64,000 nt of DNA from Oscillospiraceae bacterium (lineage in GTDB: Bacteria > Bacillota > Clostridia > Oscillospirales > Oscillospiraceae): assembly GCA_910575265.1 (NCBI GenBank), contig CAJTEA010000008.1:1-64000 (forward strand), given 5' to 3'. Under the pieces are notes generated by a model, which was not told where the DNA came from, made no database searches, and saw only the letters and a list, made by a program, of their open reading frames with translations. Position 1 is the stretch's first letter, and the number at the start of each line of letters is the position of its first letter. Positions 1,857-16,533 of this stretch are shown one piece after another. A program made the translations under genes and the position numbers.

Positions 1857-3512
1857 TCAGCACTCCAGCTTTTCCAGGGTGCAGGTTTTAGCGATAGACT
1901 TGCGGATTTTAGCCCGAAGCGGCAGGACGGCGGAGGGAGAGACGGACAGCTCGTCGATACCGATGGCCAGGAAGGTCTCCAGCAGGGTCAGATCCGCTCC
2001 CAGCTCGCCGCAGATGCCGATCCAAATGCCCGCTTTATGGGCGGCGTCGGCGGCCAGCTTCAGCGCCCGGAGGACGGCGGGGTGGTGGGGATCAAAGAAC
2101 TTGCCCAGATCGTTAGCCTGACGGTCGCAGGCCAGGGTGTACTGGGTCAAATCGTTGGTGCCCACTGAGAAGAAGTCCACCTCTTTTGCCAGCTCCTCCG
2201 CCACCAGAACGGAGGCGGGAGTCTCGATCATAACTCCGATCTCGGTATCCTGACGGTAGGGGACCCCCTCTCTGTCCAGCTCAGCCATCACCTTTTGGCA
2301 GGCCCGTTTGCACTCCTTGACCTCCCACACAGAGGTAATCATGGGGAACATGATCGCCACTTTGCCATAGGCGGAGGCCCGGTACAGCGCCCGCAGCTGG
2401 GTGCGGAACACCTCGGGACGGTTCAGGCAGATCCGGATCGCCCGGACACCTAAAGCGGGGTTCTCCTCCTTGTGCAGCTGAAAGTAGTCCACCTGCTTGT
2501 CCGCGCCGATGTCCAGAGTACGGATGACCACCCGCTTGCCGCCCATGGCGGCGGCAACCTCCTTGTAAGCCTGAAACTGCTCCTCCTCGGTAGGGTAGTC
2601 GCTGGAGGCCAGATACAGGAACTCGGAGCGGAACAGGCCGATACCCTGGCCGTCGTTGGACAAAACGGCGGACACATCCGCGGGGGAGCCGATGTTGCAG
2701 TAGACCATCATCTCCCGGCCGTCCATGGTAACGTCCCCCTGGCCTTTCATGGTCTCCATCAGCTCCTTCATTTCCCGCTGCTTTTCCATCTTGGTCTGGA
2801 AGGAGGACAGGGTGATTTTATCGGGGTCAATAGCCACCTGGCCGGTTTCACCGTCAATGTAGATCTCCCGTCCGGACTGGTCCGCTTTGAGGGCCTCGCC
2901 CAGGCCGCAGATGGCGGGAATGCCCATCGTCCGGGCAAGAATGGCGGTGTGGCTGTTGCTGGAACCGCCCTGGGTGATAAAGCCCAAAATCTTGGATTTG
3001 TCCAACTGGAGGGTTTCAGAGGGGGCCAGGTCGTCGGCGGCTAAAATCACCGGGACCTCAGAGTCAATCCCGCCCTCGGCGATCCCCATCAGGTTGTTGA
3101 GAATGCGGCGGGTCACATCCTTGATGTCGGCGGCGCGGCCCTGCATGTAAGGGTCATCCATCGCGGCCAGCATGGCGGCGAACTCCTCCCCGGCAAGCTC
3201 CACCGCCTTCTCCGCGAGGCAGCCCCGCTCGGTCAGGGTGTTCATCATACAGTCCACATAGTCCTCGTCCTCTACAAACATGGCGTGAGTCTCAAAGAGA
3301 ATGGCGGTTTCGTCGCCGGTATCCTCCCGAGCCTTATCGGCCAGGGCGTTAAGCTGGTCGATCGCTTTTTTCTGAGCGGCGGCGATGCGGGCCTTTTCCG
3401 CCTCAATGTCAGCGGCGGGGGTGTCCGAAATGGTGGTATCCGGGCGCTGGAAGAAATAGAGGGGGCCGTTGGCGACGCCTTTGGAGACGCCCTTTCCCTG
3501 CAGCATAATCAT
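1857..3512 (-). CDS. ptsI: PTS enzyme I (PEP-protein phosphotransferase)
   Basis: 551 residues, close to the usual 550-575. Enzyme I takes phosphate from phosphoenolpyruvate and passes it to HPr in the cytoplasm. The HPr-binding/phosphohistidine half contains QGGSSNSHTAILA with His188 as the expected phosphorylated residue. The C-terminal PEP-binding barrel shows FRSEFLY, VIRTLDIGADK and the active-site cysteine in ICGELGAD. ATG 3512 is preceded by GGAGG at good spacing. It is the last gene of the leftward mannitol locus, 72 nt after ptsH with a hairpin between them. Since the window shows no other complete enzyme I, it probably serves other PTS sugars too. Confidence 0.95.
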   Translation of the reverse strand: MIMLQGKGVSKGVANGPLYFFQRPDTTISDTPAADIEAEKARIAAAQKKAIDQLNALADKAREDTGDETAILFETHAMFVEDEDYVDCMMNTLTERGCLAEKAVELAGEEFAAMLAAMDDPYMQGRAADIKDVTRRILNNLMGIAEGGIDSEVPVILAADDLAPSETLQLDKSKILGFITQGGSSNSHTAILARTMGIPAICGLGEALKADQSGREIYIDGETGQVAIDPDKITLSSFQTKMEKQREMKELMETMKGQGDVTMDGREMMVYCNIGSPADVSAVLSNDGQGIGLFRSEFLYLASSDYPTEEEQFQAYKEVAAAMGGKRVVIRTLDIGADKQVDYFQLHKEENPALGVRAIRICLNRPEVFRTQLRALYRASAYGKVAIMFPMITSVWEVKECKRACQKVMAELDREGVPYRQDTEIGVMIETPASVLVAEELAKEVDFFSVGTNDLTQYTLACDRQANDLGKFFDPHHPAVLRALKLAADAAHKAGIWIGICGELGADLTLLETFLAIGIDELSVSPSAVLPLRAKIRKSIAKTCTLEKLEC

Positions 3513-3547
3513 GGCAGCTTCCTCCTTATATACGTAATAATGGGACA

Positions 3548-3575
3548 GGGGCGTCCGCCGCGAGGCAGACGCCCC
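3548..3575 (-). terminator. Hairpin between ptsH and ptsI
   Basis: GGGGCGTC and GACGCCCC form an 8-bp GC-rich stem with a 12-nt loop in the gap between two co-directional PTS genes. With no strong T-run it is more likely an attenuator or mRNA stabiliser than a full stop. Confidence 0.5.
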
Positions 3576-3584
3576 AAGCGTTGT

Positions 3585-3845
3585 TTACAGATTCTCCTTG
3601 AAGAACTGCTCCATAGCGGCGGCATTCGCCTCTTCATTGCCGCCCTCCACGGTAACGGTAACGGTCTCGCCGTTTTTGATGCCCATGCCCATAAGCGCCA
3701 TCAGCTTGGTAGCGGCGGCGGACTTGCCGTCGGCCTTGGCAATGGTAACGGTGCTGTCCAGAGCTTTGGCGGCCTTAGCCAGCATGCCCGCGGGACGGGC
3801 GTGGACGCCGATGGGATCGGTGATGGTGTAGGTAAACTGTTTCAT
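3585..3845 (-). CDS. ptsH: HPr phosphocarrier lacking canonical Ser46
   Basis: 86 residues. HPr carries phosphate from enzyme I to the EIIA domains. The catalytic histidine is His15 in IGVHARPAG with Arg17 beside it. Aligned by eye to Bacillus HPr, the regulatory region NLKSIMGVMSLG is replaced by AATKLMALMGMG: the Ser46 position is Lys47, with Thr46 just before it and one extra residue upstream. HPr kinase would therefore not have its normal target. The gene sits between mtlA and ptsI, with AAAGGAAG before ATG 3845. A second HPr with a proper Ser46 lies at 5933-6199, so the two may divide transport and regulatory work. Confidence 0.92.
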   Translation of the reverse strand: MKQFTYTITDPIGVHARPAGMLAKAAKALDSTVTIAKADGKSAAATKLMALMGMGIKNGETVTVTVEGGNEEANAAAMEQFFKENL

Positions 3846-3877
3846 GATAATACTTCCTTTCTAAAATAAATCATTGA

Positions 3878-5788
3878 TTAGGTTAGACCATTCAGCTTTT
3901 TATACAGCTCTTCCACGGTGGCGCTGTCCACCAGAGCGTCGGTATCCTCCTCGGTTTCACAGACCTCTACGATGCGGTTGAGAATGTCCAGGTGCTCCTC
4001 ACCCTGAGAGGCAATGCCGATCACCAGGCGGACAAGCTCCTCGTCCTCGCCCCAGACGATACCCTCGGGATAGGTCATGACCACCAAGCCGGTCTTTTGG
4101 ATAAACTCCCGGGACTCGTTGGTGCCGTGGGGGATGGCCACATGGCTGCCGATGGCGACGGGGAAGCCCGCGTCGCGCTCGATCATGCCCTGTACGTAGC
4201 CTTCGGTGCAGTAGCCGCTTTCCACCATCCGCTTGCCGCAGGCCTTAATGGCCTCCTCGGGTGTGACGGACTTACAGTTCAGCACAATGTTCTTCCTGTC
4301 CAGCAAAATCGCGCCGGGGGCAGCGGGGACAGCGTTGGCCTGGGGGACGGCGGGGGCGGGAGCGGTCTTGCCGCTGCGGGCCGCCACCAGCTCCTCCACC
4401 AGAGCGCCATACTCGGGGGCGCCCATGAAGTTCTGAATGGGGATGACCCGGGCGTTGGGATTGCTGGCCACGGCGCGGTGGGCCAGCTCGTGGTGGGTAA
4501 CAACGATCTGGCAGTCCTTGGGAATCTCGCTGACCGGGGCGTGGACCACCTCGATGTCGGTGATGCCGGCGTCCTTCAGCTTATTGCGCAGCATAGTGGC
4601 TCCCATGGCGGAGGAACCCATGCCAGCGTCGCAGGCAAAGACGATCTTCTTGACAGACTTGACATCCACCTTGGCTCCGGTGGGAGCGTCAGAGGGAGCG
4701 GGCTGCCCCTTGGAGGCGGCCTTGCTGGCGGCTACCTGAGCCTGGGCCTCGGCCAGGCTGGCGTCCTTGCCAAAGAGCTTCAGCAGGAAAACGGAGATGG
4801 CGAAGCTGACCGCTCCGGCCACGGCGATGCCGGCGATATTGGCGAAGTAGCAGCCCTTGGGGGTGAGCATCAGCTCAGCGATCACGCTGCCGGGGGAAGC
4901 GGGCCCGGACAGGCCGCCGCCCAGAAGGTTGAGGGTAAAAATGCCGCACACATTGCCCAGCATGGGGCCCAGGATAACGATGGGGTTCATGAGGACATAG
5001 GGGAAATAGATCTCGTGGATACCGCCCACAAACTGGATGACAGCGGCGGCGCCTGCGGAGGAGCGGGTTTCCCCCTTTCCGGCCACGCAGTAGGCCAGCA
5101 GCAGGCCCAGGCCGGGGCCGGGGTTGGACTCGATCATGTACAGGATAGACTTGCCCACTTCGCCGGCGGCCCGGAGGGCCTCCACCTGCTCGGTGCCGAT
5201 AGGGGTAAATACCCCGTGGTTGATCGCGTTATTCAGGAACAGTACCTTGGCGGGCTCCACCAGCACGGCGGTGAGGGGGAGCAGGCTGTGATCCACCAGC
5301 CAGCCCACGCCCGCGCCCAGCCAGTTGGTGAGGACGACGCAGGTGGGACCGATGGCGAAGATGGACAGAATGGCCAGCAGGCCGCCGATGATGCCCACGG
5401 AGAAATTGTTGATTACCATCTCGAAGCCGGCGGGGACATGGCCCTCCATCTTCTCGTCAAACTTCTTGACGCACCAGCCGCCCAGAGGGCCGCAGATCAT
5501 GGCGCCGATAAACATGGTGCTCTCGGTGGAGGCGATGGCGCCCAAGGCGGCCAGCGCGCCGGTCACCGCCCCCTTCTGTCCGCCCACCATCTTGCCTCCG
5601 GTATAGGCGATGAGGATGGGCAGCAGGTAGGAGAGCATGGGACTCACCATCTTGGCGATGGTGGCGTTGGGGAACCAGCCGGCCTCAATAAACAGGGCGG
5701 CAATCAGGCCCCAGGCAATGAAAGCCCCGATGTTGGGCATGACCATCCCGCTGAGGAACCGCCCGAATTTTTGTACCCGTTCTTTCAC
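3878..5788 (-). CDS. mtlA: Mannitol-specific PTS EIICBA permease
   Basis: 636 residues from GTG 5788, matching the length of E. coli MtlA (637). It imports mannitol and releases mannitol-1-phosphate. Domains in order: EIIC membrane domain (about 1-335, many hydrophobic helices, loop GGIHEIYFPYVLMNP), EIIB (from about 375; Cys386 in FACDAGMGSS) and EIIA (from about 495; His554 in HVAIPHGTNESR). The linker between B and A is Ala/Pro rich. The GTG start is chosen because AAAGGAG lies 8 nt before it, while the upstream TTG has none. It lies between the second HPr gene and ptsH, all leftward, and the product is oxidised by the divergent mtlD. Confidence 0.95.
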   Translation of the reverse strand: MKERVQKFGRFLSGMVMPNIGAFIAWGLIAALFIEAGWFPNATIAKMVSPMLSYLLPILIAYTGGKMVGGQKGAVTGALAALGAIASTESTMFIGAMICGPLGGWCVKKFDEKMEGHVPAGFEMVINNFSVGIIGGLLAILSIFAIGPTCVVLTNWLGAGVGWLVDHSLLPLTAVLVEPAKVLFLNNAINHGVFTPIGTEQVEALRAAGEVGKSILYMIESNPGPGLGLLLAYCVAGKGETRSSAGAAAVIQFVGGIHEIYFPYVLMNPIVILGPMLGNVCGIFTLNLLGGGLSGPASPGSVIAELMLTPKGCYFANIAGIAVAGAVSFAISVFLLKLFGKDASLAEAQAQVAASKAASKGQPAPSDAPTGAKVDVKSVKKIVFACDAGMGSSAMGATMLRNKLKDAGITDIEVVHAPVSEIPKDCQIVVTHHELAHRAVASNPNARVIPIQNFMGAPEYGALVEELVAARSGKTAPAPAVPQANAVPAAPGAILLDRKNIVLNCKSVTPEEAIKACGKRMVESGYCTEGYVQGMIERDAGFPVAIGSHVAIPHGTNESREFIQKTGLVVMTYPEGIVWGEDEELVRLVIGIASQGEEHLDILNRIVEVCETEEDTDALVDSATVEELYKKLNGLT

Positions 5789-5878
5789 AGATCTGACTCC
5801 TTTCAATATGTATTTAGGGAAGGATCACTTGGGAAAAGATGTATTTGTTTATGGTGTATCCCGCTTATAGCCACCGCG

Positions 5879-5908
5879 CTTCCAAGGAATCAAAGGATTC
5901 TTTGGAAG
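5879..5908 (-). terminator. Hairpin between second HPr gene and mtlA
   Basis: A 13-bp stem with one G.U-type mismatch (5879-5891 with 5896-5908, AAAG loop) in the 144-nt gap. No T-run follows on the minus strand, so it may trim or stabilise mRNA and set a different dose of HPr and permease. Confidence 0.55.
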
Positions 5909-5932
5909 TCCGCTTTCTAGGTGCCTTGACCG

Positions 5933-6199
5933 TTACAAGTCGCCCAGCCCGGACTCCACCAGCCTGACAGCGGCGGACAACGCCTCGGCCTCATCGGCAC
6001 CCTCACAGCGGATTTCGAGATTGCTGTCCCTTCGGATGCAGGAGGCCATCAGGTTCATGATGCTTTTGGCGTTGATGACTTTCTCGCCGAAGAGAATTGT
6101 GATGGTACTGTCATATTTGCCCAGCTCCGTGACCAGAATTTGAGCCGGACGCATATGCATTCCTTGAGGACCGACAAATTTGACATGTTGGGAAACCAT
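5933..6199 (-). CDS. Second HPr-family protein with Ser46
   Basis: 88 residues from ATG 6199. With this start the phospho-acceptor is exactly His15 (GMHMRPA) and the regulatory serine exactly Ser46 (NAKSIMNLMA), which confirms the start over a TTG further upstream; AAAGGATG gives the ribosome site. So this copy keeps both the PEP-dependent and the HPr-kinase-type sites, whereas the ptsH copy in the same locus has lost Ser46. It lies between the DeoR regulator and mtlA. It may be the catabolite-repression HPr (as HPr/Crh in bacilli) or a mannitol-dedicated carrier. Confidence 0.9.
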   Translation of the reverse strand: MVSQHVKFVGPQGMHMRPAQILVTELGKYDSTITILFGEKVINAKSIMNLMASCIRRDSNLEIRCEGADEAEALSAAVRLVESGLGDL

Positions 6200-6233
6200 A
6201 ATAAAATACATCCTTTCCAAAGCGTTTTATCTC

Positions 6234-6252
6234 ATGCTGTTCGTAACAGCAT
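6234..6252 (-). promoter_or_regulatory. Short perfect hairpin before second HPr
   Basis: ATGCTGTT and AACAGCAT form an 8-bp stem with a 3-nt loop between the regulator gene and the HPr gene. Possible mRNA processing or operator site; function not shown. Confidence 0.4.
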
Positions 6253-6265
6253 ATAGAGAACAAGG

Positions 6266-7009
6266 TTAAACCGCGATGACATCCGTGCTTTCCAGATACT
6301 TTCGGTCAGGCGGCTTGTCGGTGATAACCTGAGCCCTGTCCAGAGGCAGGATTGTGGCGGCGGTGACCCGGCCGAATTTGCTGGAGTCGGCCAGTACATA
6401 CACTGACTGCGCCCGGGACGCCGCCAGGAATTTCAGCGCGGCCGCCTCGGGGTCCGGAGTGGTAAAGCCCTGACTGACACTGACCCCGCTGGTACCCAGA
6501 AACGCTTTGGTAAAATTGTAGTGCCGCAGGGCGTCCAGCGCCTCGGCGCCCATAATGTCCACCGTGCTCGGCTTCAGCGCCCCGCCCAGCACATAGACAT
6601 TTCGTTCAAAGGCGGAGAGCATACCGGCAAAGTCGATGCTGCTGGTGACAAACAGGGCCTTGGAGTCCTTCAGATATTCGGCCATATGGAGCGCCGTGGT
6701 GCCTGTGTCCAGAAAAACCACGTCGTCTTCCCGCACCAGGCTGGCGGCATAGCGGGCGATGCGCTCCTTTTCACGGGTGTAGCGCTGTTTGGTGGCCAGG
6801 TCAGGCTCCTGGGCCAGGAACTCCACCTCCTCCAAGGTAGTGGCGCCGCCATGGATTTTTACCAGCTTGCCCTGGCGGGCCAGCGCGTTCAAGTCCCGGC
6901 GGATGGTGGCCTCAGAGGCGCCGGTGGCCTGGCAAAGGTCTGTCACACTGACTGTCTGACGTTGGGTAAGCTGATCTAAAATCGCTCGGGCACGCTGTTC
7001 CGCCAACAT
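6266..7009 (-). CDS. DeoR-family transcriptional regulator of the mannitol locus
   Basis: 248 residues from ATG 7009, chosen because AGGAGGGG lies just upstream; in-frame codons further out lack a site. An N-terminal winged helix (about 1-60: TVSVTDLCQATGASEATIRRDLNAL, KLVKIHGGA) is typical of DeoR repressors. The C-terminal sugar-phosphate-sensing domain includes VFLDTGTTALHMAEYL, TSSI and FLGTSGVS. It is the first gene of the leftward mtl/PTS unit and faces mtlD, so it likely controls both sides in response to a sugar phosphate such as mannitol-1-phosphate (inference). Confidence 0.88.
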   Translation of the reverse strand: MLAEQRARAILDQLTQRQTVSVTDLCQATGASEATIRRDLNALARQGKLVKIHGGATTLEEVEFLAQEPDLATKQRYTREKERIARYAASLVREDDVVFLDTGTTALHMAEYLKDSKALFVTSSIDFAGMLSAFERNVYVLGGALKPSTVDIMGAEALDALRHYNFTKAFLGTSGVSVSQGFTTPDPEAAALKFLAASRAQSVYVLADSSKFGRVTAATILPLDRAQVITDKPPDRKYLESTDVIAV

Positions 7010-7250
7010 CCTGTATCCCCTCCTGTATTCGGTGATTGTTTTTGCTTGTTGATTGATTTTGACTGAACAAATCATAACATAGTGTCCAAAGAATGTCAAC
7101 CGGATTTTCATTCGTTTTATTCACAAAAACAACACTTCTATTTTGTTAATCTTGCTGAATTAATAGGAGTTCGCATATGGGAATCCGGATAGATCAAATG
7201 GTTTGCTCCAACTGGAAATCCGTCTGTAATACAGAAAAGGTAGATTCAAT

Positions 7251-7276
7251 CAAAATCGCTCATTTGACCGATTTTG
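7251..7276. promoter_or_regulatory. Candidate operator in the deoR-mtlD gap
   Basis: A perfect inverted repeat CAAAATCG / CGATTTTG with a 10-nt spacer lies about 40 bp upstream of the mtlD -35 box. The 387-bp gap (7010-7396) otherwise holds only promoter-like AT-rich sequence; I see no gene in it. The site is a natural candidate for the DeoR protein. Confidence 0.4.
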
Positions 7277-7313
7277 AACACTTTTGATCGGGATTTTTTG
7301 GTGCTTTCCAATC

Positions 7314-7342
7314 TTGCGGGCCCGGGAGGGGCATGCTATACT
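7314..7342 (+). promoter_or_regulatory. Sigma-A promoter of mtlD
   Basis: TTGCGG, 17-bp spacer, TATACT with a TG two bases upstream (extended -10). It is about 55 bp before the mtlD start. Confidence 0.75.
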
Positions 7343-7396
7343 ATGACCAACAGGACCAAAGAACACGAAAAACAATGAAAAGGAGCGCGAACAGAC

Positions 7397-8560
7397 ATGA
7401 AACAGGCAATTATGATCGGCGCGGGCAACATCGGCCGGGGCTTTATTGGGGCCCTGCTGGAGAAAAGCGGCTACCATGTTACCTTTGCCGACGTAGCGGA
7501 GCATCTGATTTCCGCGATCAACGAGCGCGAGAGCTACACTGTGCATATCCAGGACAGGGAACAGGCGCGATGGACAGTCACGAACATCAGCGGCATTTCC
7601 TCCGCCAACCAGGAGCTGGTGGACGCTGTCGCCGGAAATTGCGAACTCATCACCACCGCTGTGGGCCTGCGTATCCTGCCCATCGTGGCCAGGCCCATTG
7701 CCGCCGGCATCAGGGCTCGGAAAGCCGCGGGGAGCACTCAGATCATGAATGTGGTGGCCTGTGAGAACGCGATCCGGGGTACCAGCCAGCTCCGTGAGGC
7801 CGTCTACAGCAACCTGAATGAGGAGGAACAGGCCTACGCGAAGGAGTATGTGGGCTTCGCCGACTGCGCTGTGGACCGCATTGTTCCCAAGGCCAGCTTT
7901 GAAAACCCTTTGGACGTGGCGGTGGAGCAATACACCGAGTGGGATGTGGAGAAGGCCGGCTGGAAGGGGGAGCTGCCCGATATTCAGGGCCTGTCCTGGG
8001 TGGACGATCTGTCCGCCTACTTAGAGCGTAAGCTGTTCACCCTGAACAGCGGCCATGCCATTTGCGCCTATCTGGGCACTCTGAAGGGCTGTAAGACCAT
8101 TGTGGAGAGCATCGCGGACCCCGCCATCAGCCATCTGGTCTATCAGGCCATGTGTGAGAGCGGCGAGGGTCTCATCAAGAAGTTCGGTTTTGACCCCGAT
8201 GCCCACCACGCCTATATTGACCGCATTTTCGCCCGGTTCCAGAACCCGTTCCTGGCTGACGAGACCCAGCGTGTGGCTCGCGAGCCCATCCGAAAGCTGG
8301 CGCCTACCGACCGGCTGATTAAGCCCCTGATGACCGCCTATCACTACGGTATGCCTGTGGACCACCTGCTTTTTGGCGCCGCCGCCGCCCTCCACTTCAA
8401 CTGCCCCGAGGACGAGCAGAGCGTAGAGCTGCAAAAGAAGATCAAGGACGAGGGCGTGGAGAAGGCATTGGAGGAGTACACCGGACTGAACCCCTCTGAG
8501 CCGCTCTTTGGCCGCGTTCTGGACGTATACCGCGCTTTGGGAATCGGGAAAAAGAACTGA
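7397..8560 (+). CDS. mtlD: Mannitol-1-phosphate 5-dehydrogenase
   Basis: 387 residues, the usual length. It oxidises mannitol-1-phosphate to fructose-6-phosphate with NAD. The N-terminal Rossmann fold shows AIMIGAGNIGRGFIG (about 4-18); CENAIRG, DCAVDRIVP and the catalytic region KLFTLNSGHAICAYLG follow, all typical of the long-chain mannitol dehydrogenase family. AAGGAG precedes ATG 7397. It is divergent from the regulator and PTS genes and has its own promoter and a terminator at 8590, completing the mannitol pathway encoded here. Confidence 0.95.
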   Translation: MKQAIMIGAGNIGRGFIGALLEKSGYHVTFADVAEHLISAINERESYTVHIQDREQARWTVTNISGISSANQELVDAVAGNCELITTAVGLRILPIVARPIAAGIRARKAAGSTQIMNVVACENAIRGTSQLREAVYSNLNEEEQAYAKEYVGFADCAVDRIVPKASFENPLDVAVEQYTEWDVEKAGWKGELPDIQGLSWVDDLSAYLERKLFTLNSGHAICAYLGTLKGCKTIVESIADPAISHLVYQAMCESGEGLIKKFGFDPDAHHAYIDRIFARFQNPFLADETQRVAREPIRKLAPTDRLIKPLMTAYHYGMPVDHLLFGAAAALHFNCPEDEQSVELQKKIKDEGVEKALEEYTGLNPSEPLFGRVLDVYRALGIGKKN

Positions 8561-8589: not shown

Positions 8590-8621
8590 AATATCCCGAA
8601 CGGAAAACCGTTCGGGATATT
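8590..8621. terminator. Bidirectional hairpin after mtlD
   Basis: A perfect 14-bp stem with an AAAA loop lies between the convergent mtlD and TauE/SafE genes; it can serve both strands. Confidence 0.75.
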
Positions 8622-8663: not shown

Positions 8664-9452
8664 CTAAAGCGGAGTTAAATACCGCCACGCGTTGAAAATA
8701 CTGATACAGATAATCACCATCATCAAAAGGACAAACAGATTTTCGACCGCTTTTCCGTCCATATGACGATTCAGCTTCCGGCCAAGGATACCTCCCGCTA
8801 ATCCCCCAGCTGCCATCAGCATCAGCACAGGCCAGCGGAAATCCGGGACGGAAGCTGTGATCAGGGTGGTCAACAGGCCACAAAGCTGGCTGAATAAGAT
8901 GATGTAAAGGCTGTTAGCGGCGGCTGTTTTCGTATCCATACTGAAAAAGTAATACAACACCACCAGATTGATGGGGCCGCCGCCAATCCCCAAAAAGCTG
9001 GACATACATCCTAACGCCAAGCCGATTGCGGCACAGCCTCCCTTATTCCGAACCCGGCGGGTCGGAACGCGGGATTTATTCAGCGTGTAAAGCAGTGTCC
9101 CCGCTGTGACGATGGCCAGACAGGCGGACTGGATCGCCCCCACTTGGTTGGGCATGTCTGACAGCCTCCGCGCCAGCGCGAACAGCTGATTGCCCAACAG
9201 TCCACCCACCGCCGCCCCAACGGCCAGCGGCGTTCCGATATCCAGCGCGACATTTTTTTCTCCCGCCAGAAGCGACTTGCCCACGGAGTAGCAGGTCATG
9301 GTTAGTACAGTACAGCCGGACAGAAAGCTGATGGTGGATACAGTCTCCAGGCGGAATAAATCCAGCACAGGTTTTATAATGACCCCGCCGCCAATCCCGC
9401 AGATGGCGCCGACGGCGCTGGCCGCCAGGGCAACAAGAAAAAACAGTGGCAT
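8664..9452 (-). CDS. TSUP (TauE/SafE-type) anion exporter
   Basis: 262 residues, very hydrophobic with about eight membrane segments. Two family-type glycine motifs are visible: GAICGIGGGVIIKPVLDL near the N-terminus and SSFLGIGGGPINLVVLYYF in the second half, reflecting the internal duplication of TSUP proteins. Family members move sulfite, sulfate, sulfonates or related anions, often outward. It is the last gene of the leftward sulfatase cluster, 4 nt after the maturase, so export of the sulfate released by the sulfatase is a natural role (inference). It could also simply be a permease of unknown substrate. Confidence 0.88.
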   Translation of the reverse strand: MPLFFLVALAASAVGAICGIGGGVIIKPVLDLFRLETVSTISFLSGCTVLTMTCYSVGKSLLAGEKNVALDIGTPLAVGAAVGGLLGNQLFALARRLSDMPNQVGAIQSACLAIVTAGTLLYTLNKSRVPTRRVRNKGGCAAIGLALGCMSSFLGIGGGPINLVVLYYFFSMDTKTAAANSLYIILFSQLCGLLTTLITASVPDFRWPVLMLMAAGGLAGGILGRKLNRHMDGKAVENLFVLLMMVIICISIFNAWRYLTPL

Positions 9453-9456
9453 ACTA

Positions 9457-10572
9457 TCACCTCGGTTTCAGCAAAGCCCGCGCTCCATGCAGCCGCGGGA
9501 GGGCGTAGGCGAAGAATCCGGCATAGGCTTCGCAGTAGTAATTGCGGCCCAGCTCGTCAGCCTCTAACAGCCGGTCCCGGCGGCAGCCGTTGCGGCACAG
9601 GGGATACCACTGGCAGCGGCCGCACTGCTCCGGCACGCGCTCAGACGCCTGGACAAATCTCAGCTCTTCCCTGGCCCGGTCTAATTCCGCCCAGGAATTT
9701 TCGCGAATATTCCCCAGCCGGTAACTGTCCAGGCCGTAGAAATCACAGGGATAGACGCTTCCGTCCGCCTCCGCCAGATATTGCCGGCCGCAGCGCCCCC
9801 GCATGGAGCATTGCTCCGGGGCGTGCCCCTCCAGCATCCATATCAGATTGTCGAAGTAACGGATGGACCAATAGCGCCCCCGCTCCAACTCCCGGTACCA
9901 CAGGTCGAAAAGGGTTTTCAAAAATTCCTCATATTGGTTCGGAGACAGAGAATAGCGCTGTCCGCCCCGCTCCTCCGCCAGCGGGTCCAGGCATGGGATG
10001 TACTGCTGGAAACGGAATCCGCCTTTGCAAAGGGCGGAGAAAACGCTCTGGATATGTTTGGCCAGATAGCCCGTAACCACCGTGAGGACGTTGCGCTCCA
10101 CCCCGGCCCGCCCCAGCAGTCGGGCCGCCCGGAGCACCCGGTCGTAGGTGCCCTGCCCCGTCCCGTCCCGGCGGAAGCGGTCGTGGCACTCCCGGCTGCC
10201 GTCCAGAGAGAGGCCCACCAGAAAGTGGTTTTCCTTCAAAAAGCCGCACCAGGCCTCGTCCAGCAGTATTCCGTTGGTCTGGATGGAATATTGGACCGTC
10301 AGGTTCGGCGGGGCCGTTTTCGTTACGTGTCCGGTAAAGTCCCGATAGAAGTCCAGCCCCGCCAGGGTGGGCTCGCCCCCCTGGAACAGGAAGGTGACGG
10401 AGCCCTCCGCCGCCTTCACCGCCTTTTCTATGAGGGCGTGGCTTACCTCTTTTGGCATCAGCCCGTAATTGGGAACGGCGCGGGCGCTGGCCTCATCGGC
10501 ATAGAAGCAGTAGGCGCAGCGCAGATTGCAGCTGCTGGAGGCCGGTTTTAACAGGACGCTCAGGGGCGGCAT
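9457..10572 (-). CDS. Anaerobic sulfatase-maturating radical-SAM enzyme
   Basis: 371 residues from ATG 10572, chosen for the AAAGGGGGAG site; an upstream in-frame start has none. The radical-SAM cluster is CNLRCAYC (Cys15, 19, 22). Then come FLFQGGEPTLAG and a C-terminal SPASM region with many cysteines (CSMRGRCGRQY, YPCDFYG, CGRCQWYPLCRNGC) that bind two auxiliary 4Fe-4S clusters. This matches anSME, which converts the active-site cysteine or serine of sulfatases to formylglycine without oxygen. Its probable client is the Cys-type sulfatase two genes upstream. Radical-SAM/SPASM peptide-modifying enzymes look similar, but the QGGEPTLAG segment and the neighbour make anSME the best call. Confidence 0.92.
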   Translation of the reverse strand: MPPLSVLLKPASSSCNLRCAYCFYADEASARAVPNYGLMPKEVSHALIEKAVKAAEGSVTFLFQGGEPTLAGLDFYRDFTGHVTKTAPPNLTVQYSIQTNGILLDEAWCGFLKENHFLVGLSLDGSRECHDRFRRDGTGQGTYDRVLRAARLLGRAGVERNVLTVVTGYLAKHIQSVFSALCKGGFRFQQYIPCLDPLAEERGGQRYSLSPNQYEEFLKTLFDLWYRELERGRYWSIRYFDNLIWMLEGHAPEQCSMRGRCGRQYLAEADGSVYPCDFYGLDSYRLGNIRENSWAELDRAREELRFVQASERVPEQCGRCQWYPLCRNGCRRDRLLEADELGRNYYCEAYAGFFAYALPRLHGARALLKPR

Positions 10573-10630
10573 GGACGCTCCCCCTTTCTCGGCTTTGAAT
10601 TGGGCCGCCCGGATGGACGGCCCGCTTGGT

Positions 10631-11740
10631 TTATTTCTTGGCGGGGCCGACGGATCGGCCCAGATAAATTTCCGGAGCCAGGACATAGGTATAATTGATG
10701 TCGTCGCAGTCCCGGCTGCGGATCATCCGCATCAGGCGCGAGGCCACCTCCTGTCCGATCCGGAAGCCCTGGTGGATGGAACAGGTGATCCCTTCCGCTT
10801 CCCAGTCCTCGTTCGAGTAATCAAAGCAGACCAGGGAACAGTCCTCTGGCACCCGTTTGCCCTGTTTCTCCAACACCTGCCGCACCATCTGGTAGATCAT
10901 ATAGTTGCAGCAGACCACGGCGGTGCAGTGGGGCAGGCGCTTCAGGAAGCGGTCGATGGAGCGGACGAAGCTGGGATCGTGGGCCTCGTTGGAGACACAC
11001 CACTTGGTATAGTCGTCCTGGTACTCCACCCCGTTCTTCTGGAGGGTGGCCGCCATTCCCTGAAATTTCTCAATGCTCTGATAATTGTCTGAGACAAAAA
11101 CTCCGGCAATATTCCGGTGCCCCTCCCGGATCAGCAGGCCGATGAGCTCCTCCGCGCAGCGCAGGTCGTTGACCACCACCCGGGGGCACTTCAGATTCCG
11201 ATAATAGTTGTTATAGAAGATGACCGGGATTCGTTTCTGATAAATCTTCTGGTAACAGTCCAGGTTGGGGTTGAGCAGACTGGCCTTGACGCCGTCTACA
11301 ATAAAGCCCTGAAAGCCCTGGTTCATCACGGCCTGAAGGCAGCGGCGCTCGTTGGCGAACTTGTTGTCGGTGAGGAAGGCGCGCAGGTCCACCTGGTCGG
11401 GAGGCAGAATGCTGCGGATGCCCTCCATCAGGCTGGAGTTGGCGTTGCCGTCCTGGCCCTGGAGAATCAGCCCGATCTTGATCTTTCCTCCGCTGCCCCC
11501 CAGCTCCCAGGACAGGGCCTCCTCTTTGTTGATGTAGGTGCCGCTTCCTTTCACCCGGCGGAGCAGGCCCTCCGACGTCAGCCGCTCCAGCGCCCGGCGC
11601 ACCGTCTCCCGGCTTACGGACAGCTTCCGGCACAGAGTATGTTCCGAAGGGATTCTGGTATTGCTGGAAAACTTATTTTCCTCAATATAGGCCCGCGCCC
11701 AAAGGTAGACCCTCTCCGCCTTCCCGTCCAATTCCTTCAT
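10631..11740 (-). CDS. GntR/LacI-type (AraR-like) transcriptional regulator
   Basis: 369 residues from ATG 11740 (GAGGAGGGC upstream). The N-terminus is a GntR winged helix (about 12-70: IPSEHTLCRKLSVSRETVRRAL, LLRRVKGSGTYI). The rest is a LacI-type periplasmic-binding fold (IKIGLILQGQDG, GFIVDGVKASL, GHRNIAGVF, CTAVVCCNYMIYQMV). AraR of bacilli has this architecture and releases DNA on binding its sugar. It lies inside the sulfatase cluster between the sulfatase and the maturase, so it probably senses the imported ligand or its desulfated product. Confidence 0.9.
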   Translation of the reverse strand: MKELDGKAERVYLWARAYIEENKFSSNTRIPSEHTLCRKLSVSRETVRRALERLTSEGLLRRVKGSGTYINKEEALSWELGGSGGKIKIGLILQGQDGNANSSLMEGIRSILPPDQVDLRAFLTDNKFANERRCLQAVMNQGFQGFIVDGVKASLLNPNLDCYQKIYQKRIPVIFYNNYYRNLKCPRVVVNDLRCAEELIGLLIREGHRNIAGVFVSDNYQSIEKFQGMAATLQKNGVEYQDDYTKWCVSNEAHDPSFVRSIDRFLKRLPHCTAVVCCNYMIYQMVRQVLEKQGKRVPEDCSLVCFDYSNEDWEAEGITCSIHQGFRIGQEVASRLMRMIRSRDCDDINYTYVLAPEIYLGRSVGPAKK

Positions 11741-11771
11741 GACGCCCTCCTCAGAGACCATGCGGCATTCC

Positions 11772-13124
11772 TCAGTTGGTAATGACGGGCCGGTTCCCCT
11801 CCGCTCTCTCGATCCAATCCAGCAGCCGCTCCCGCAGCTCCGCTTTCACCTGCGCGTAGGCCGGGTCGGCCACCACATTGTTCAGCTGGTGGGGGTCCCG
11901 CTCCATATCGTAGAGGAAGTCGTCGGCGTACCGGTCCGCCGCCGCGGCCTCGCCGCCGTTGACGCCGGGGGCGTAGACCGAGTAGGTATACCGGGCCGTG
12001 CGGACGCACCGGCCCACCCGGCTTTCGGATATCTGCGCGAAAATCTCGTTGGGTCTATTATCGTCCTTTTTCTCCACCACGTCAAGGAGGTTTTCCCCGA
12101 TCATGGCGTCCCCCACGTCCACCCCAGCCAGGGCCAGGATGGTCTTGGGCAGGCTGGCGGTGCTCACCAGCTCCTCCACGGCGATCCCCCCTTTGAAGGG
12201 CCCGCCGGCGATGACCAGGGGCACATGGAGGGCCGCGTCGTGACAGGAGCGCTTGTAGTCGTCGTAGCCGTTGAGGTGGGAGTCCCGGTTGCGGGTGAGG
12301 AAGTGGGAGCCGTGGTCAGAGGCGAAGATAATCACCGTATTCTCATACAGCCCCTTCTCCTTCAGTCTGGCCACCAGCCGGCCCAGGTTCTCGTCCAGGC
12401 TGGCGCACTGGCCCAGGTAGTCTGGGTACTCCTCCAACCCGTTGCCCCCCAGTGCCTTCAGGTCCTCGGGCAGGACAAAATCCTTGAACCGCTCCTTGGA
12501 GCCCTCCGGCCCCTCGTAGTGCTTCCGGTCGTTCTGGTGGTGAGGCTCGATCTGGGATATGGTCATAAAGAAGGGCTTTTTTCCGTCGTACTGGTCGAAG
12601 AACTCCAGGGCCATGTCGTTGATGCGGTCCGCCCGGTAGCCCTTGAAGTCGATGCGCCGGTCGTTCTCGTCAAAGACAAAGCCGTCGTAGCCGTGGGAGG
12701 TGAACTCCAGCACATCGGCGGCGCGCCAGAAGCCGGTGTAGCCCCCCCGCAGCTCCCGGGGGATGGCGGTGACGGTGTGGTCGATGGTGGGGGGCTTCTC
12801 CAGCTCCCCGTCGCTGGCCAGGTGCCACTTGCCGATGTAGGCGGTCTCATAGCCCGCCTCCTCAATATAGCTGCCCAGGGTCTTCACCCCGGCGGGCAGC
12901 ATGATGTTGTTCCGGAAGCAGCCCGTCTCGGTGGGCCACTTGCCTGTCTGGAACAGGGCCCGGCAGGGGCCGCACACCGGCTGAGGGGAGAAGGCGTTGT
13001 CAAACTTGACCCCCTCCCGGGCCAGCCGGTCCAGATTGGGCGTGATGTCCAGGGGCTGGCCGAAGCAGCCGCAGGTATCCCAGCGCTGCTGGTCGGTAAA
13101 GTAGAATATAATGTTGTTGGGCAT
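11772..13124 (-). CDS. Cytoplasmic formylglycine sulfatase, Cys type
   Basis: 450 residues. The active-site signature is PVCGPCRALFQTG, matching C-x-P-x-R-xxxx-TG, with Cys51 to be converted to formylglycine. Metal-binding Asp11 (FTDQQRWD), GKWH (about 98-101) and the C-terminal FASDHGSHF complete a type I sulfatase site. There is no signal peptide, so the enzyme should act inside the cell; most gut sulfatases that attack polysaccharides are exported. This fits a small sulfated molecule brought in by the TctCBA genes upstream. Substrate is unknown; arylsulfatase-like and choline-sulfatase-like enzymes share these motifs. AGAAGGAGG precedes ATG 13124, 2 nt after tctA. Confidence 0.93.
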   Translation of the reverse strand: MPNNIIFYFTDQQRWDTCGCFGQPLDITPNLDRLAREGVKFDNAFSPQPVCGPCRALFQTGKWPTETGCFRNNIMLPAGVKTLGSYIEEAGYETAYIGKWHLASDGELEKPPTIDHTVTAIPRELRGGYTGFWRAADVLEFTSHGYDGFVFDENDRRIDFKGYRADRINDMALEFFDQYDGKKPFFMTISQIEPHHQNDRKHYEGPEGSKERFKDFVLPEDLKALGGNGLEEYPDYLGQCASLDENLGRLVARLKEKGLYENTVIIFASDHGSHFLTRNRDSHLNGYDDYKRSCHDAALHVPLVIAGGPFKGGIAVEELVSTASLPKTILALAGVDVGDAMIGENLLDVVEKKDDNRPNEIFAQISESRVGRCVRTARYTYSVYAPGVNGGEAAAADRYADDFLYDMERDPHQLNNVVADPAYAQVKAELRERLLDWIERAEGNRPVITN

Positions 13125-13126
13125 TG

Positions 13127-14629
13127 TCAGTCCTCCTTCTGAGCGGCGGCTTTTTTCTCCTTCATCTTGCCCCGGACGATGGTTCCCACCGCCGCCGCGA
13201 TGAGGACCAGGAAGATGATGCAGTACACACTGCTGAAAAAGATGCTGGGGCTGCCGTTGGAGATGAGCAGGGCCCGGCGGAAGTTGGTCTCGGTCATGCT
13301 GCCCAGCACCAGACCCAGCAGGATGGGCACCGGCGGCAGCTCCAGCTTGCGCAGCACCCAGGCCAGAGCGCCGAACACCAGGGCCACGCCCACGTCAAAG
13401 TAGTTGCCGTTGACCGAGTACGCCCCCGCGAAGCAGAAAATGACGATGATGGGGGTGAGGATTTCCTGGGGAATGGAAACTACCTTCGCGAACAGGGAGG
13501 TGAGGAACTTGCCCTGGAGACACATGAATATATTCACCAGAATCAGGCCCAGCATGATGGCGTACATGATGTCCCCCTGGGTGGTAAACAGGCTCAGGCC
13601 GGGGTTCAGGCCGTTGATCATCAGGGCGGAGAGCATAATGGCTACCGTGCCGTCACCGGGGATGCCCAGGGTGAGCAGGGGAATCAGAGTGGCTCCGGTG
13701 ACGGCGTTGTTGGCCGACTCTGCGGCGGCGATGCCCTCCACCGAGCCGTGGCCGAACTCCTCCGGGTGCTTGGACATGTTCTTGGCGGTGTTGTAGCTGA
13801 ACCAGGAGGCCTCTGAGGCTCCCGTGCCCGGGATGATGCCCACCAGCACGCCGATGATGGAGGACAGCAGCACGGGCCGGGCCATGCGCTTGTACTCCGC
13901 CTTGGTAATCACCCCGTCGTCCTTGATCTGGGTGGTGTCCAGATTGAGCCGGTCCAGGGGCTTCTCCGCCTTGGCCATGATCTCCACCAGGGCAAAGAGG
14001 CCGATCAGGCAGATGGCCAGGTCCAGCCCCAGGTAGAGCCGGGAGACCCCGAAGGTGAAACGGTCATAGCTGGTCATGGGGTCGGAGCCCACGCAGGAGA
14101 TGAGCAGACCCAGGCAGGCGGAGATCAGGCCTTTAATCATGCTCTTGCCCGACACACCGGCAATGATGGTCAGACCAAAGACACAGACCATAAAATACTC
14201 CGCCGTGCCCAGCTGGGCGGCGATTTTGGCCACCTGGGGCCCCAGGAACAGCAGCATCAGGGCGGAGAACACCCCGCCGAAGGTGGAGGCGTACAGGGCG
14301 ATTTTCAGCGCCGCCTTGGTGCGGCCCCGCTCCGAGAGCGGGTGTCCGTCCAGCATGGTGGCCGCCGCGTGAGGGGTGCCGGGGGTGTTGATGAGGATGG
14401 CGGACACGCTGCCGCCGTAGCCGCCGGCGCAGTAGATGCCCAGCAGGAACATCATGCCGGGAATGGCCATCATGGAGTAGGTGACGGGCAGGAACAAAAT
14501 GACGCACAGGATGACGCTCAGGCCGGGAATGGCCGCAAAGACCGAGCCCACAAACACACCGATGTTAATCCACAGGATATTTTCCAGGGTGAACAGCAGG
14601 CCGGTGGCTGGAATGATATGCTGTAACAT
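13127..14629 (-). CDS. tctA: Tripartite tricarboxylate transporter, large membrane subunit
   Basis: 500 residues from ATG 14629 (AAGGAGGGG upstream), the normal TctA length. About 12 membrane helices. Family-typical segments include INTPGTPHAAATMLDGHPL, PGTGASEASWFSYN and LTLGIPGDGTVAIML. It forms the transmembrane channel for a substrate delivered by TctC, using an ion gradient. It is ten bases after tctB and two before the sulfatase, so transport and desulfation are co-expressed. The name tricarboxylate is historical; TTT systems also take aromatic acids, dicarboxylates and other anions. Confidence 0.95.
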   Translation of the reverse strand: MLQHIIPATGLLFTLENILWINIGVFVGSVFAAIPGLSVILCVILFLPVTYSMMAIPGMMFLLGIYCAGGYGGSVSAILINTPGTPHAAATMLDGHPLSERGRTKAALKIALYASTFGGVFSALMLLFLGPQVAKIAAQLGTAEYFMVCVFGLTIIAGVSGKSMIKGLISACLGLLISCVGSDPMTSYDRFTFGVSRLYLGLDLAICLIGLFALVEIMAKAEKPLDRLNLDTTQIKDDGVITKAEYKRMARPVLLSSIIGVLVGIIPGTGASEASWFSYNTAKNMSKHPEEFGHGSVEGIAAAESANNAVTGATLIPLLTLGIPGDGTVAIMLSALMINGLNPGLSLFTTQGDIMYAIMLGLILVNIFMCLQGKFLTSLFAKVVSIPQEILTPIIVIFCFAGAYSVNGNYFDVGVALVFGALAWVLRKLELPPVPILLGLVLGSMTETNFRRALLISNGSPSIFFSSVYCIIFLVLIAAAVGTIVRGKMKEKKAAAQKED

Positions 14630-14639
14630 AAGCCCCTCC

Positions 14640-15155
14640 TTAAAAGTCCACGCCCAAGGCGAAGCGGAAGGCCGCCCAGATGGCCACCGCCAGCGCCAGA
14701 GTAATGACATAGTAGGATTTCTTCCGGCACCGGAAGTAGAGCAAAAAGCCCAGACAGCAGAAAATCGCGCCGATTACAAACAGACCGGTGAGCTTGCTCA
14801 GAAGCCAGGTGACGACCAGGATCGCCAGGATCACCAGGGCCTTGACTTCCACCTGGATGTTAATGACCTTCCAGTTCAGGGGCTGCCTGGTGGCCAGCTT
14901 ATACAGCTCTTTGCCCACCAGCATGGCGCAGCAGAGCATCATCACTACCATCAGCAGGGTCGGAAACGCGCGGCCATTGACCACGTCCTTCTCGGAAATT
15001 GCCACCTGGTCCGGCATGACCAGAAGTACCACAAGGGCTACGAGGAAAAACACCGCGCCGGTGACCAAATCCACGGGAATTCGGATTTCTTTTTCATGCA
15101 GCTTCCGGCCCCAGGAATCCATGCGGCCGTTGAACTGCTCCACCCATTTACTCAT
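14640..15155 (-). CDS. tctB: Tripartite tricarboxylate transporter, small membrane subunit
   Basis: 171 residues with four predicted membrane helices (LVTGAVFFLVALVVLLVM, LLMVVMMLCCAMLV, VKALVILAILVVTWLL and a C-terminal one), typical of TctB. It partners TctA in the membrane. The start has AAAGGAGG upstream. A strong hairpin with a T-run separates it from tctC, which should give more binding protein than membrane subunits. Confidence 0.9.
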   Translation of the reverse strand: MSKWVEQFNGRMDSWGRKLHEKEIRIPVDLVTGAVFFLVALVVLLVMPDQVAISEKDVVNGRAFPTLLMVVMMLCCAMLVGKELYKLATRQPLNWKVINIQVEVKALVILAILVVTWLLSKLTGLFVIGAIFCCLGFLLYFRCRKKSYYVITLALAVAIWAAFRFALGVDF

Positions 15156-15183
15156 GGGGGGACCTCCTTTCCTGATTCAAAAA

Positions 15184-15219
15184 GGGGAATGGGCGGGATT
15201 CCTCCCGATCCCATTCCCC
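15184..15219 (-). terminator. Attenuator between tctC and tctB
   Basis: On the minus strand CGGGGAATGGG pairs with CCCATTCCCC and is followed by TTTTT. Partial termination here would raise the binding protein over the membrane subunits. Confidence 0.75.
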
Positions 15220-15236
15220 GCACTGTGGTACTCAGA

Positions 15237-16202
15237 TCAGCCGGCAACGATGTCCTTGTACTCGTTGACGATGTTCTTTACATTTTCAACGTGGGCCTCC
15301 ACGTCCTCCACGGACATGGTGTCCACCTCCAGCAGCATGGTGTTATGCAGCCAGTCGGCGACCTCCTGGTCGGCCAGGATCTTGCCATAGAGCTCCTTCA
15401 GCTCGGCGACCTTATCGGCGTCAGTGCCGGCCCGGGCCATGACGAAGCAGCGGTTGCGGAAGTAGGGGTAGCCGTGCTGGCCCACACCCTCCACGCCCTC
15501 GAAGGGGCCGTTGGCGATGTCGTTCTCGTCGAAGGCGCAGACTACGGTCACGCCATTCTGCTGGTAGGTCTCCAGAATCTGGGACTGGTGGGAGACGGCG
15601 AACTGGGTCTCGCCCCGGGCCACGGCCTGGGCGGCCTCAGCGGCGGACTGGTAGGGGGTGAGCTTCAGCTTGTCGCCCGCGCCCATGGAGCCGAACAGAG
15701 CGGCGGCCAGGAAGGCCTCGGAGCTGGTGGCGCCGTTGACGGCCACGCTGATCTCGTTGCCCTGCTCCACATAGGCCTTCAGGTCAGCGATGTTATTGAG
15801 GTTCAGCTTGGCGTCGGCGGAGAGAACAAAGATGGAGGAGTACAGGTTCTCCACAAAGACAAAGTCCTCATACCCGAACTGCATCTTGTCCGGGTCCAGG
15901 ATGGAGGTGATGGACAGCAGACCCTCGCCCACAAACACCAGCTCGGTGTCGTTGGCCTTGGTGTCCGCTACCCAGGTATTCACGGTGGCGGCGTCCCCTT
16001 TGATGGCCTCGGCCACCAGGGTGATGGTGTCGGAGTAGCTGGTGGACTTGGTGGCCGCCTGCTGGCTCACCATAGCGGCTACGCCGGAGGGGGCCCAGGG
16101 ACAGGTGACCTTCCAGGTGGCGTTTTTCTTGCCGCCGCAGGAGGCGAGCAGCGCCACGCACATGGCTCCCACAAGGGCAAGGCTGAGAAATTTCTTTTTC
16201 AT
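15237..16202 (-). CDS. tctC: TctC-type substrate-binding lipoprotein
   Basis: 321 residues from ATG 16202 (AAGGAG seven bases upstream; the ATG two codons earlier is too close to the site). A lipoprotein signal peptide ends at LLASC, so the mature protein is anchored outside the membrane. The TTT binding-protein (Bug family) fold is seen in CPWAPSGVAAMVSQQ, FVGEGLLSI and VAVNGATSSEAFLAAAL. It is the first and probably most expressed gene of the sulfatase cluster and defines what is imported; the ligand should be an anion, plausibly a sulfated carboxylate (inference). Confidence 0.92.
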   Translation of the reverse strand: MKKKFLSLALVGAMCVALLASCGGKKNATWKVTCPWAPSGVAAMVSQQAATKSTSYSDTITLVAEAIKGDAATVNTWVADTKANDTELVFVGEGLLSITSILDPDKMQFGYEDFVFVENLYSSIFVLSADAKLNLNNIADLKAYVEQGNEISVAVNGATSSEAFLAAALFGSMGAGDKLKLTPYQSAAEAAQAVARGETQFAVSHQSQILETYQQNGVTVVCAFDENDIANGPFEGVEGVGQHGYPYFRNRCFVMARAGTDADKVAELKELYGKILADQEVADWLHNTMLLEVDTMSVEDVEAHVENVKNIVNEYKDIVAG

Positions 16203-16271: not shown

Positions 16272-16301
16272 AATCTAGCACAAGTCGGACACATGATTCA
16301 A
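16272..16301 (-). promoter_or_regulatory. Candidate promoter of the tctCBA-sulfatase cluster
   Basis: On the minus strand TTGAAT, 18-bp spacer, TAGATT about 70 bp before tctC. The 400-bp gap to polA (16203-16602) holds this and the polA promoter; nothing else is recognisable. Confidence 0.5.
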
Positions 16302-16533
16302 CATCTTTTTTTAAAAAATGAAGAAAGTTGTATGTTCGTTGTCTCCGTTATAGAAACCTGTCTGAAAAACCCCGTCTTTTCTTACATTTTATACAAACCG
16401 CATCAGCGATTCTGGATGCCCAAGCGCATTGACTACATTATCCCTGCGCCACCGAAGCATATTTGCTGACCCGTTACCACTCGCGGTATATTATCCCCCA
16501 AAGCACCCGGCACTCCCATAAAGACATGTTCTC

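Follow-up and report, generated by a model that had tools for sequence, protein, structure and literature searches.

The window analyzed here, the whole stretch of 64,000 nucleotides from an Oscillospiraceae bacterium (contig CAJTEA010000008.1), carries on its minus strand a cluster of seven genes encoding, in this order, TctC, TctB and TctA, an S1 sulfatase, a GntR/LacI regulator, the sulfatase maturase anSME and a TSUP exporter. This cluster is probably a scavenging operon through which a sulfated sugar is imported and then desulfated in the cytoplasm, with N-acetylglucosamine-6-sulfate (GlcNAc-6-sulfate), or a close relative of it, derived from mucin as the leading cargo. An earlier note on this DNA had proposed the uptake of an intact small sulfated acid, its cleavage inside the cell and the export of the sulfate. 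As a whole that interpretation is partly supported: the seven genes on one strand were confirmed by family profiles and there is good support for uptake with subsequent desulfation in the cytoplasm, while the cargo class was revised. The intergenic gaps, in the same order and with the trimmed maturase start, were 81, 10, 2, 10, 58 and 4 nt, and the presence of all three Tct subunits gives a complete transporter of the tripartite tricarboxylate (TTT) type.

The window sulfatase has the C-x-P-x-R site, the metal and sulfate ligands and the fold of the S1 sulfatases, and its catalytic residues were identical in all of the 49 homologs aligned; the roles of the individual ligand residues are those that we take to hold for S1 enzymes. 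Its ATG is preceded by the Shine-Dalgarno sequence AAGGAGG, and in the structure model (predicted local distance difference test score, pLDDT, of 92.9) the first core strand begins directly after the start codon. That leaves no space for an export signal, and an exported sulfatase was ruled out by the start site together with the fold. The enzyme is predicted to be cytoplasmic, as the earlier note had also held. It is the strongest of the six matches to the Pfam Sulfatase family in the 3.6 Mb genome. The maturase, a radical SAM protein with a SPASM domain that scores above the cut-off of its family (Table 1), matched the solved anSME 4k37, presumably that of Clostridium perfringens, at 379.3 bits with residues 39-401 aligned; because this match begins at M39, the listed open reading frame (ORF) is 38 residues too long. 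No other protein of the genome exceeded the TIGR03942 cut-off, the second match reaching 122 bits. The window maturase differs from 4k37, a member of the same family, in being encoded with its likely client.

The conservation of this neighbourhood had been set beforehand as a test. A total of 209 relatives of the sulfatase were confirmed in a scan of named bacterial genomes and the best 80 loci were mapped, so that relatives of lower identity are under-sampled; many of these loci are contigs of metagenome-assembled genomes with short flanks. The tctA gene was found upstream of the sulfatase gene in 57 of the 80 loci, at a distance of 200 nt or less in 55 of them, and the complete tctCBA set in 48 of the 67 loci having at least 3.2 kb upstream. 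The regulator gene immediately follows the sulfatase gene in 51 of the 57 Tct loci versus 2 of 22 others, one of these two (L089) ending at the sulfatase; with less than 1 kb upstream, the status of L089 and L090 as loci without Tct cannot be judged. A maturase gene was present within the fetched flank of 51 of the 80 loci. Fourteen of the 29 genomes without a flanking maturase were checked, and 11 have one above the cut-off elsewhere; of the other three, one falls just below it (332 bits) and two (L072 and L046) gave weak matches only. The single-strand order of the window was kept in 11 of the 80 loci, the maturase being otherwise upstream of tctC or facing the operon. This conserved neighbourhood supports the proposal of import, internal cleavage and a maturase.

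The sulfatase itself is uncommon. It was detected in 4 of the 200 family genomes sampled at an E value of 1e-60 and, at 1e-45, in 13 of 295 genomes of the order and 7 of 398 of the phylum (evenly drawn samples, own genome counted in each). By contrast, the best 120 matches listed from the protein database were all at least 95% identical to it. The hosts of the 80 loci include Flintibacter, Faecalibacterium, Anaerotruncus, Lachnospiraceae and Anaerobiospirillum, a member of another phylum. On the sulfatase tree the presence of Tct switches 12 times, at least seven of them forced by well-supported branches. Among the homologs of the order and phylum samples with 43-55% identity, no tctA was found near the sulfatase, and sugar ABC permeases adjoin it in L104, L107 and L108 only.

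Some of the individual loci deserve a separate mention. Three of them (L080, L082 and L085) belong to Anaerobiospirillum (Pseudomonadota) and contain the Tct genes, a sulfatase with 77-78% identity and a maturase, which suggests transfer between phyla. At L076:14132-18782, a different sulfatase (25% identical, SGSH_C) comes right after a TctC (PF03401), a TctB-sized ORF and a TctA homolog; the pairing of Tct with a sulfatase may have originated twice. Two homologs of 52% identity (L103:7194-9966 and L105:6442-9319) are each accompanied by another sulfatase, a divergent one that shares 24% and 26% identity with the family, respectively.

Clues to the cargo were obtained from loci in which other genes accompany the same sulfatase. 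Sugar-type ABC permeases occur within 10 kb in 11 of the 23 loci without Tct, and five of these 11 (L043, L049, L052, L063 and L078, with Pfam confirmation in L078) also encode GH112, the lacto-N-biose phosphorylase. Besides GH112, L078 contains a kinase of the APH family, read as an N-acetylhexosamine kinase, and a GH2 beta-galactosidase is present in L077, also without Tct. Both types of neighbourhood meet in L038, L040 and L058, where TSUP-tctC-tctB-tctA-sulfatase-regulator faces anSME-GH112-ABC (Pfam was run on L038). Overall, GH112 flanks the sulfatase in 8 of the 80 loci versus 0.32 expected (assuming genomes of 3 Mb with 0.75 copies), and it is encoded in 54 of the 79 genomes carrying the sulfatase versus 19 of the 295 genomes of the window's order, own genome included. 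On the sulfatase tree the GH112 neighbourhood changes five times, with at least three changes forced. The enzyme is not a partner of the Tct importer specifically, a possibility ruled out by its presence in 37 of 56 carrier genomes with Tct and 17 of 23 without; as it is equally frequent in both, the link is to the niche of the sulfatase. In a small separate set of eight carrier genomes, GH112 is encoded by all five that have Tct next to the sulfatase and by none of the three that lack it there, although one of the latter (L125) ends less than 1 kb upstream of the sulfatase.

Taken together, the substitute GH112/ABC neighbourhoods, the frequency of GH112 and the regulator's effector domain, which is of the LacI type, favour a sulfated sugar of the mucin or milk-glycan type. 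The statement that no catabolic enzyme is encoded was true of the operon, but not of the genome, which has a GH112-ABC-AraC operon elsewhere (L138:9055-15895, contig C5) and a NagA above the cut-off, nor of the three loci in which GH112 adjoins. GH112 was not found in 25 of the 79 carrier genomes, including the complete genome of A. colihominis (L042). The cargo would therefore not be lacto-N-biose sulfate alone, and a sulfated monosaccharide suits both groups. Near two distant sulfatases, at L107:5138-6001 and L092:5652-6506 (Pfam was run on L092), there are class II aldolase-like genes that fall into one cluster with 61% identity; they hint at another sugar pathway.

The solved relatives of the sulfatase also indicate a sugar. 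In a comparison of the family profile with PDB, the top four matches were the GlcNAc-6-sulfatase BT4656 (213.6 bits), the exo-L-galactose-6-sulfatase 7lha (191.3), 9s03 (190) and BT3177 (186); three of them are S1_11 sugar 6-O-sulfatases, and 9s03 is without a product name. The identity of the window sulfatase to BT4656 and BT3177 is 22-30%. These two enzymes of Bacteroides thetaiotaomicron act on 6-O-sulfated GlcNAc, and the S1_11 subfamily (6S-GlcNAc) has a His/Asp/Arg recognition triad (PMC10154612). Residues K291-R292 of the window sulfatase align with K362-R363 of 5g2v, the Lys-Arg of BT4656. The positions of the triad in our alignment are assumed ones; on this basis the triad appears to be matched in part, and membership of S1_11 is not claimed. 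Both Bacteroides enzymes belong to polysaccharide utilization loci and BT4656 is periplasmic (PMC10154612), whereas the window enzyme is predicted to be cytoplasmic.

Several observations weigh against a GlcNAc-6-sulfate scavenging operon. By structure comparison, S1_25 enzymes, YidJ of B. fragilis and glycosaminoglycan sulfatases outrank BT4656, which is sixth by small differences, and aryl- and steryl-sulfatases are merely 3-4 Z units under it; with ranks differing so little, the fold alone does not select a subfamily. Residue 289 is Asp or Glu in 49 of 49 sequences, yet it is shifted by one inserted residue with respect to the S1_11 triad, and the segment bearing the His of the triad is not conserved. 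No sugar ABC permease lies within 10 kb in 12 of the 23 loci without Tct, some of which have short flanks. The absence of GH112 from the 25 carrier genomes mentioned above points the same way, and the 295-genome background contains some carriers, is unmatched for gut habitat or Lachnospiraceae and is uncorrected for kinship; the Fisher value for GH112 likewise takes no account of kinship or gut habitat. In 33 of the 57 Tct loci, no TSUP gene was seen in the flank. Finally, all but one of the TTT ligands characterised so far bear two carboxylates, or else groups like sulfate and amide (PMC5812351). GlcNAc-6-sulfate has a single acidic group, so that the cargo may instead be a sulfated uronate or a disulfated hexosamine.

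This last point favours two other cargoes, each of them unlikely. A small sulfated acid, such as the sulfate of a phenol, a steroid or a carboxylate, would fit TTT carriers, whose substrates are mainly organic acids bearing two acidic groups (PMC5812351), and an operon that encodes no sugar enzyme of its own. Against it, orthologous sulfatases sit in GH112/ABC sugar loci, most carrier genomes encode GH112, three of the four best PDB profile matches are sugar sulfatases (the fourth being the unnamed 9s03), and the regulator has an effector domain of the LacI type. Similarly improbable is a doubly acidic sugar, be it a uronic acid carrying a sulfate, a hexosamine carrying two, or some other glycosaminoglycan fragment. 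It would suit the two-group habit of the TTT ligands (PMC5812351), and BT4656 does act on heparin-derived 6S-GlcNAc and its N-sulfated counterpart GlcNS (PMC10154612). However, no polysaccharide lyase or unsaturated-uronyl hydrolase was recognised among the neighbourhoods listed, which were inspected by eye with Pfam run on chosen genes, and GH112 indicates mucin or milk-type glycans. Less likely still is an importer with an unrelated cargo, linked to the sulfatase gene by nothing more than a common promoter: the sulfatase orthologs that have neither Tct nor a sugar ABC permease nearby (12 of the 23 loci without Tct) would agree with it, but tctA and the sulfatase gene are as close as 2 nt in the window and are kept together in most loci, Tct and the regulator are mostly retained or missing together, and sugar ABC importers replace Tct beside the same sulfatase.

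If the operon scavenges a sulfated sugar, the lipoprotein TctC would capture the small sugar outside the cell, and we infer that transport runs inwards, TctAB importing it with the sulfate still attached. The linked maturase would convert the sulfatase to its formylglycine form, the active sulfatase would remove the sulfate in the cytoplasm and the desulfated sugar would enter ordinary hexosamine or galactose catabolism. Where it is encoded, the TSUP protein would export the sulfate. Such an exporter, part of the earlier proposal, is present in the window and only loosely linked: the fetched flanks include a TSUP gene at 24 of the 57 Tct loci versus 1 of the 23 others, which rules it out as a fixed core member. 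The GntR/LacI regulator would act at an inverted repeat before tctC and would probably be relieved by the sugar.

This inverted repeat, the candidate operator, was derived as a gapped pattern from 9-mers common to the regions upstream of tctC. The pattern ACAACTTT-N8..30-GTTG was present in 32 of the 50 such regions compared, which come from the window and from 49 of the 57 Tct loci; the spacing is N21 in 30 of the 32. Elsewhere in the 80 loci it was found only in L069, a locus without Tct that has kept the regulator, where it precedes the sulfatase gene; seven additional matches are the same sites on the opposite strand. The repeat listed in Table 1 matched once in the window and never in 100 shuffles. 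It overlaps a weak -35 box (TTGAAT, 16301-16296) that was paired by eye with the -10 box TAGATT (16277-16272), a pair not listed by the sequence scan. As a point against the operator, a relaxed repeat pattern gave one match in the genome, at tctC, versus two for the reversed control; its rarity therefore proves little, and the argument is its conserved position, from which the repeat may be the operator of the linked regulator. Short palindromes without mismatches in front of tctC were set aside, being mostly T- or A-rich pairs that arise by chance.

The plan of import and desulfation is already known. Bifidobacterium breve UCC2003 grows on GlcNAc-6-sulfate, growth being impaired without both nagA genes, and its cluster Bbr_0851-0853 encodes a glucose/fructose transport protein, a sulfatase and AtsB (PMC6045583). 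This precedent supports the import-then-desulfate mechanism and lowers its novelty. As in the window, a sugar transport protein or importer, a sulfatase and a maturase are grouped, but in another phylum and with a carrier listed as a glucose/fructose transport protein instead of a TTT. TTT carriers of galactarate/glucarate and of sulfolactate have also been reported (PMC5812351); the latter are the SlcHFG systems of Roseovarius and Chromohalobacter, in which a TTT importer takes up a sulfur-bearing organic acid (PMC5812351). They differ from the window operon, which has a sulfate-ester hydrolase and a maturase. Sulfolactate is a sulfonate, whose C-S bond is cut by a lyase. In choline-O-sulfatase (BetC) operons, a cytoplasmic S1 sulfatase also acts after import; the window enzyme is not a choline sulfatase, with 119.5 bits against a TIGR03417 cut-off of 433.45. 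No open-access paper linking a TTT carrier to a sulfatase was found, the six that mention both terms being judged by title and the start of the abstract, nor any paper naming TTT, sulfatase and TSUP together. What is new is the use of a TTT carrier, the broad distribution among Clostridia and the way in which GH112/ABC loci take the place of Tct.

More tentatively than the scavenging of a sulfated sugar as such, it can be proposed that the TTT carrier imports free, intact GlcNAc-6-sulfate or a near relative. This would give sulfated mucin sugars a second route, outside the bifidobacteria, in Oscillospiraceae, Lachnospiraceae, Faecalibacterium and Anaerobiospirillum, with sugar ABC importers replacing Tct beside the same sulfatase in other strains. 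Bifidobacterium bifidum releases GlcNAc-6-sulfate from mucin extracellularly without assimilating it, and B. breve is among the partners proposed to use the fragments (PMC11186840). If the proposal is true, a far wider set of gut Clostridia can take up such sugars, including the culturable Flintibacter muris, Anaerotruncus colihominis and Faecalibacterium prausnitzii, by a carrier class whose listed ligands are organic acids (PMC5812351). Mucin-sulfate turnover would then be tied to the GH112 pathway, and a named carrier, enzyme, maturase, regulator and candidate operator would become available for testing.

The coordinates of the features are collected in Table 1. The 13-bp repeat after the TSUP gene was not flagged by the sequence scan.

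Table 1. Genes and putative signals of the TTT-sulfatase cluster, with positions in the window.
Feature	Position	Strand	Profile match or remark
tctC, solute-binding lipoprotein of the TTT importer	15237..16202	-	
tctB, small membrane subunit	14640..15155	-	PF07331, 38.7 bits (cut-off 29.1)
tctA, large membrane subunit, start set at M28 of the ORF	13127..14629	-	PF01970, 496.5 bits
S1 sulfatase without signal peptide, formylglycine site C-G-P-C-R	11772..13124	-	PF00884, 158.5 bits
Regulator, GntR DNA-binding and LacI-type effector domains	10631..11761	-	PF00392, PF13377
anSME, start set at M39 of the ORF	9457..10572	-	TIGR03942, 366.6 bits, above cut-off
TSUP (TauE/SafE) family anion exporter, predicted	8664..9452	-	PF01925, 111 bits (cut-off 32.6)
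Candidate operator, inverted repeat TACAACTTT-N20-TGTTGA	16298..16332	-	Overlaps weak -35
Possible terminator, 13-bp perfect inverted repeat after the TSUP gene	8591..8620	-	Read from sequence

Upstream, the neighbour of the operon is a divergent DNA polymerase I gene. On the other side it is adjoined by a phosphotransferase system cluster (1857-8560) encoding on the minus strand a phosphoenolpyruvate-utilising enzyme, an EIIC/EIIB/EIIA protein, HPr and a DeoR regulator, and a gene of the mannitol dehydrogenase family is located in the same region on the plus strand.

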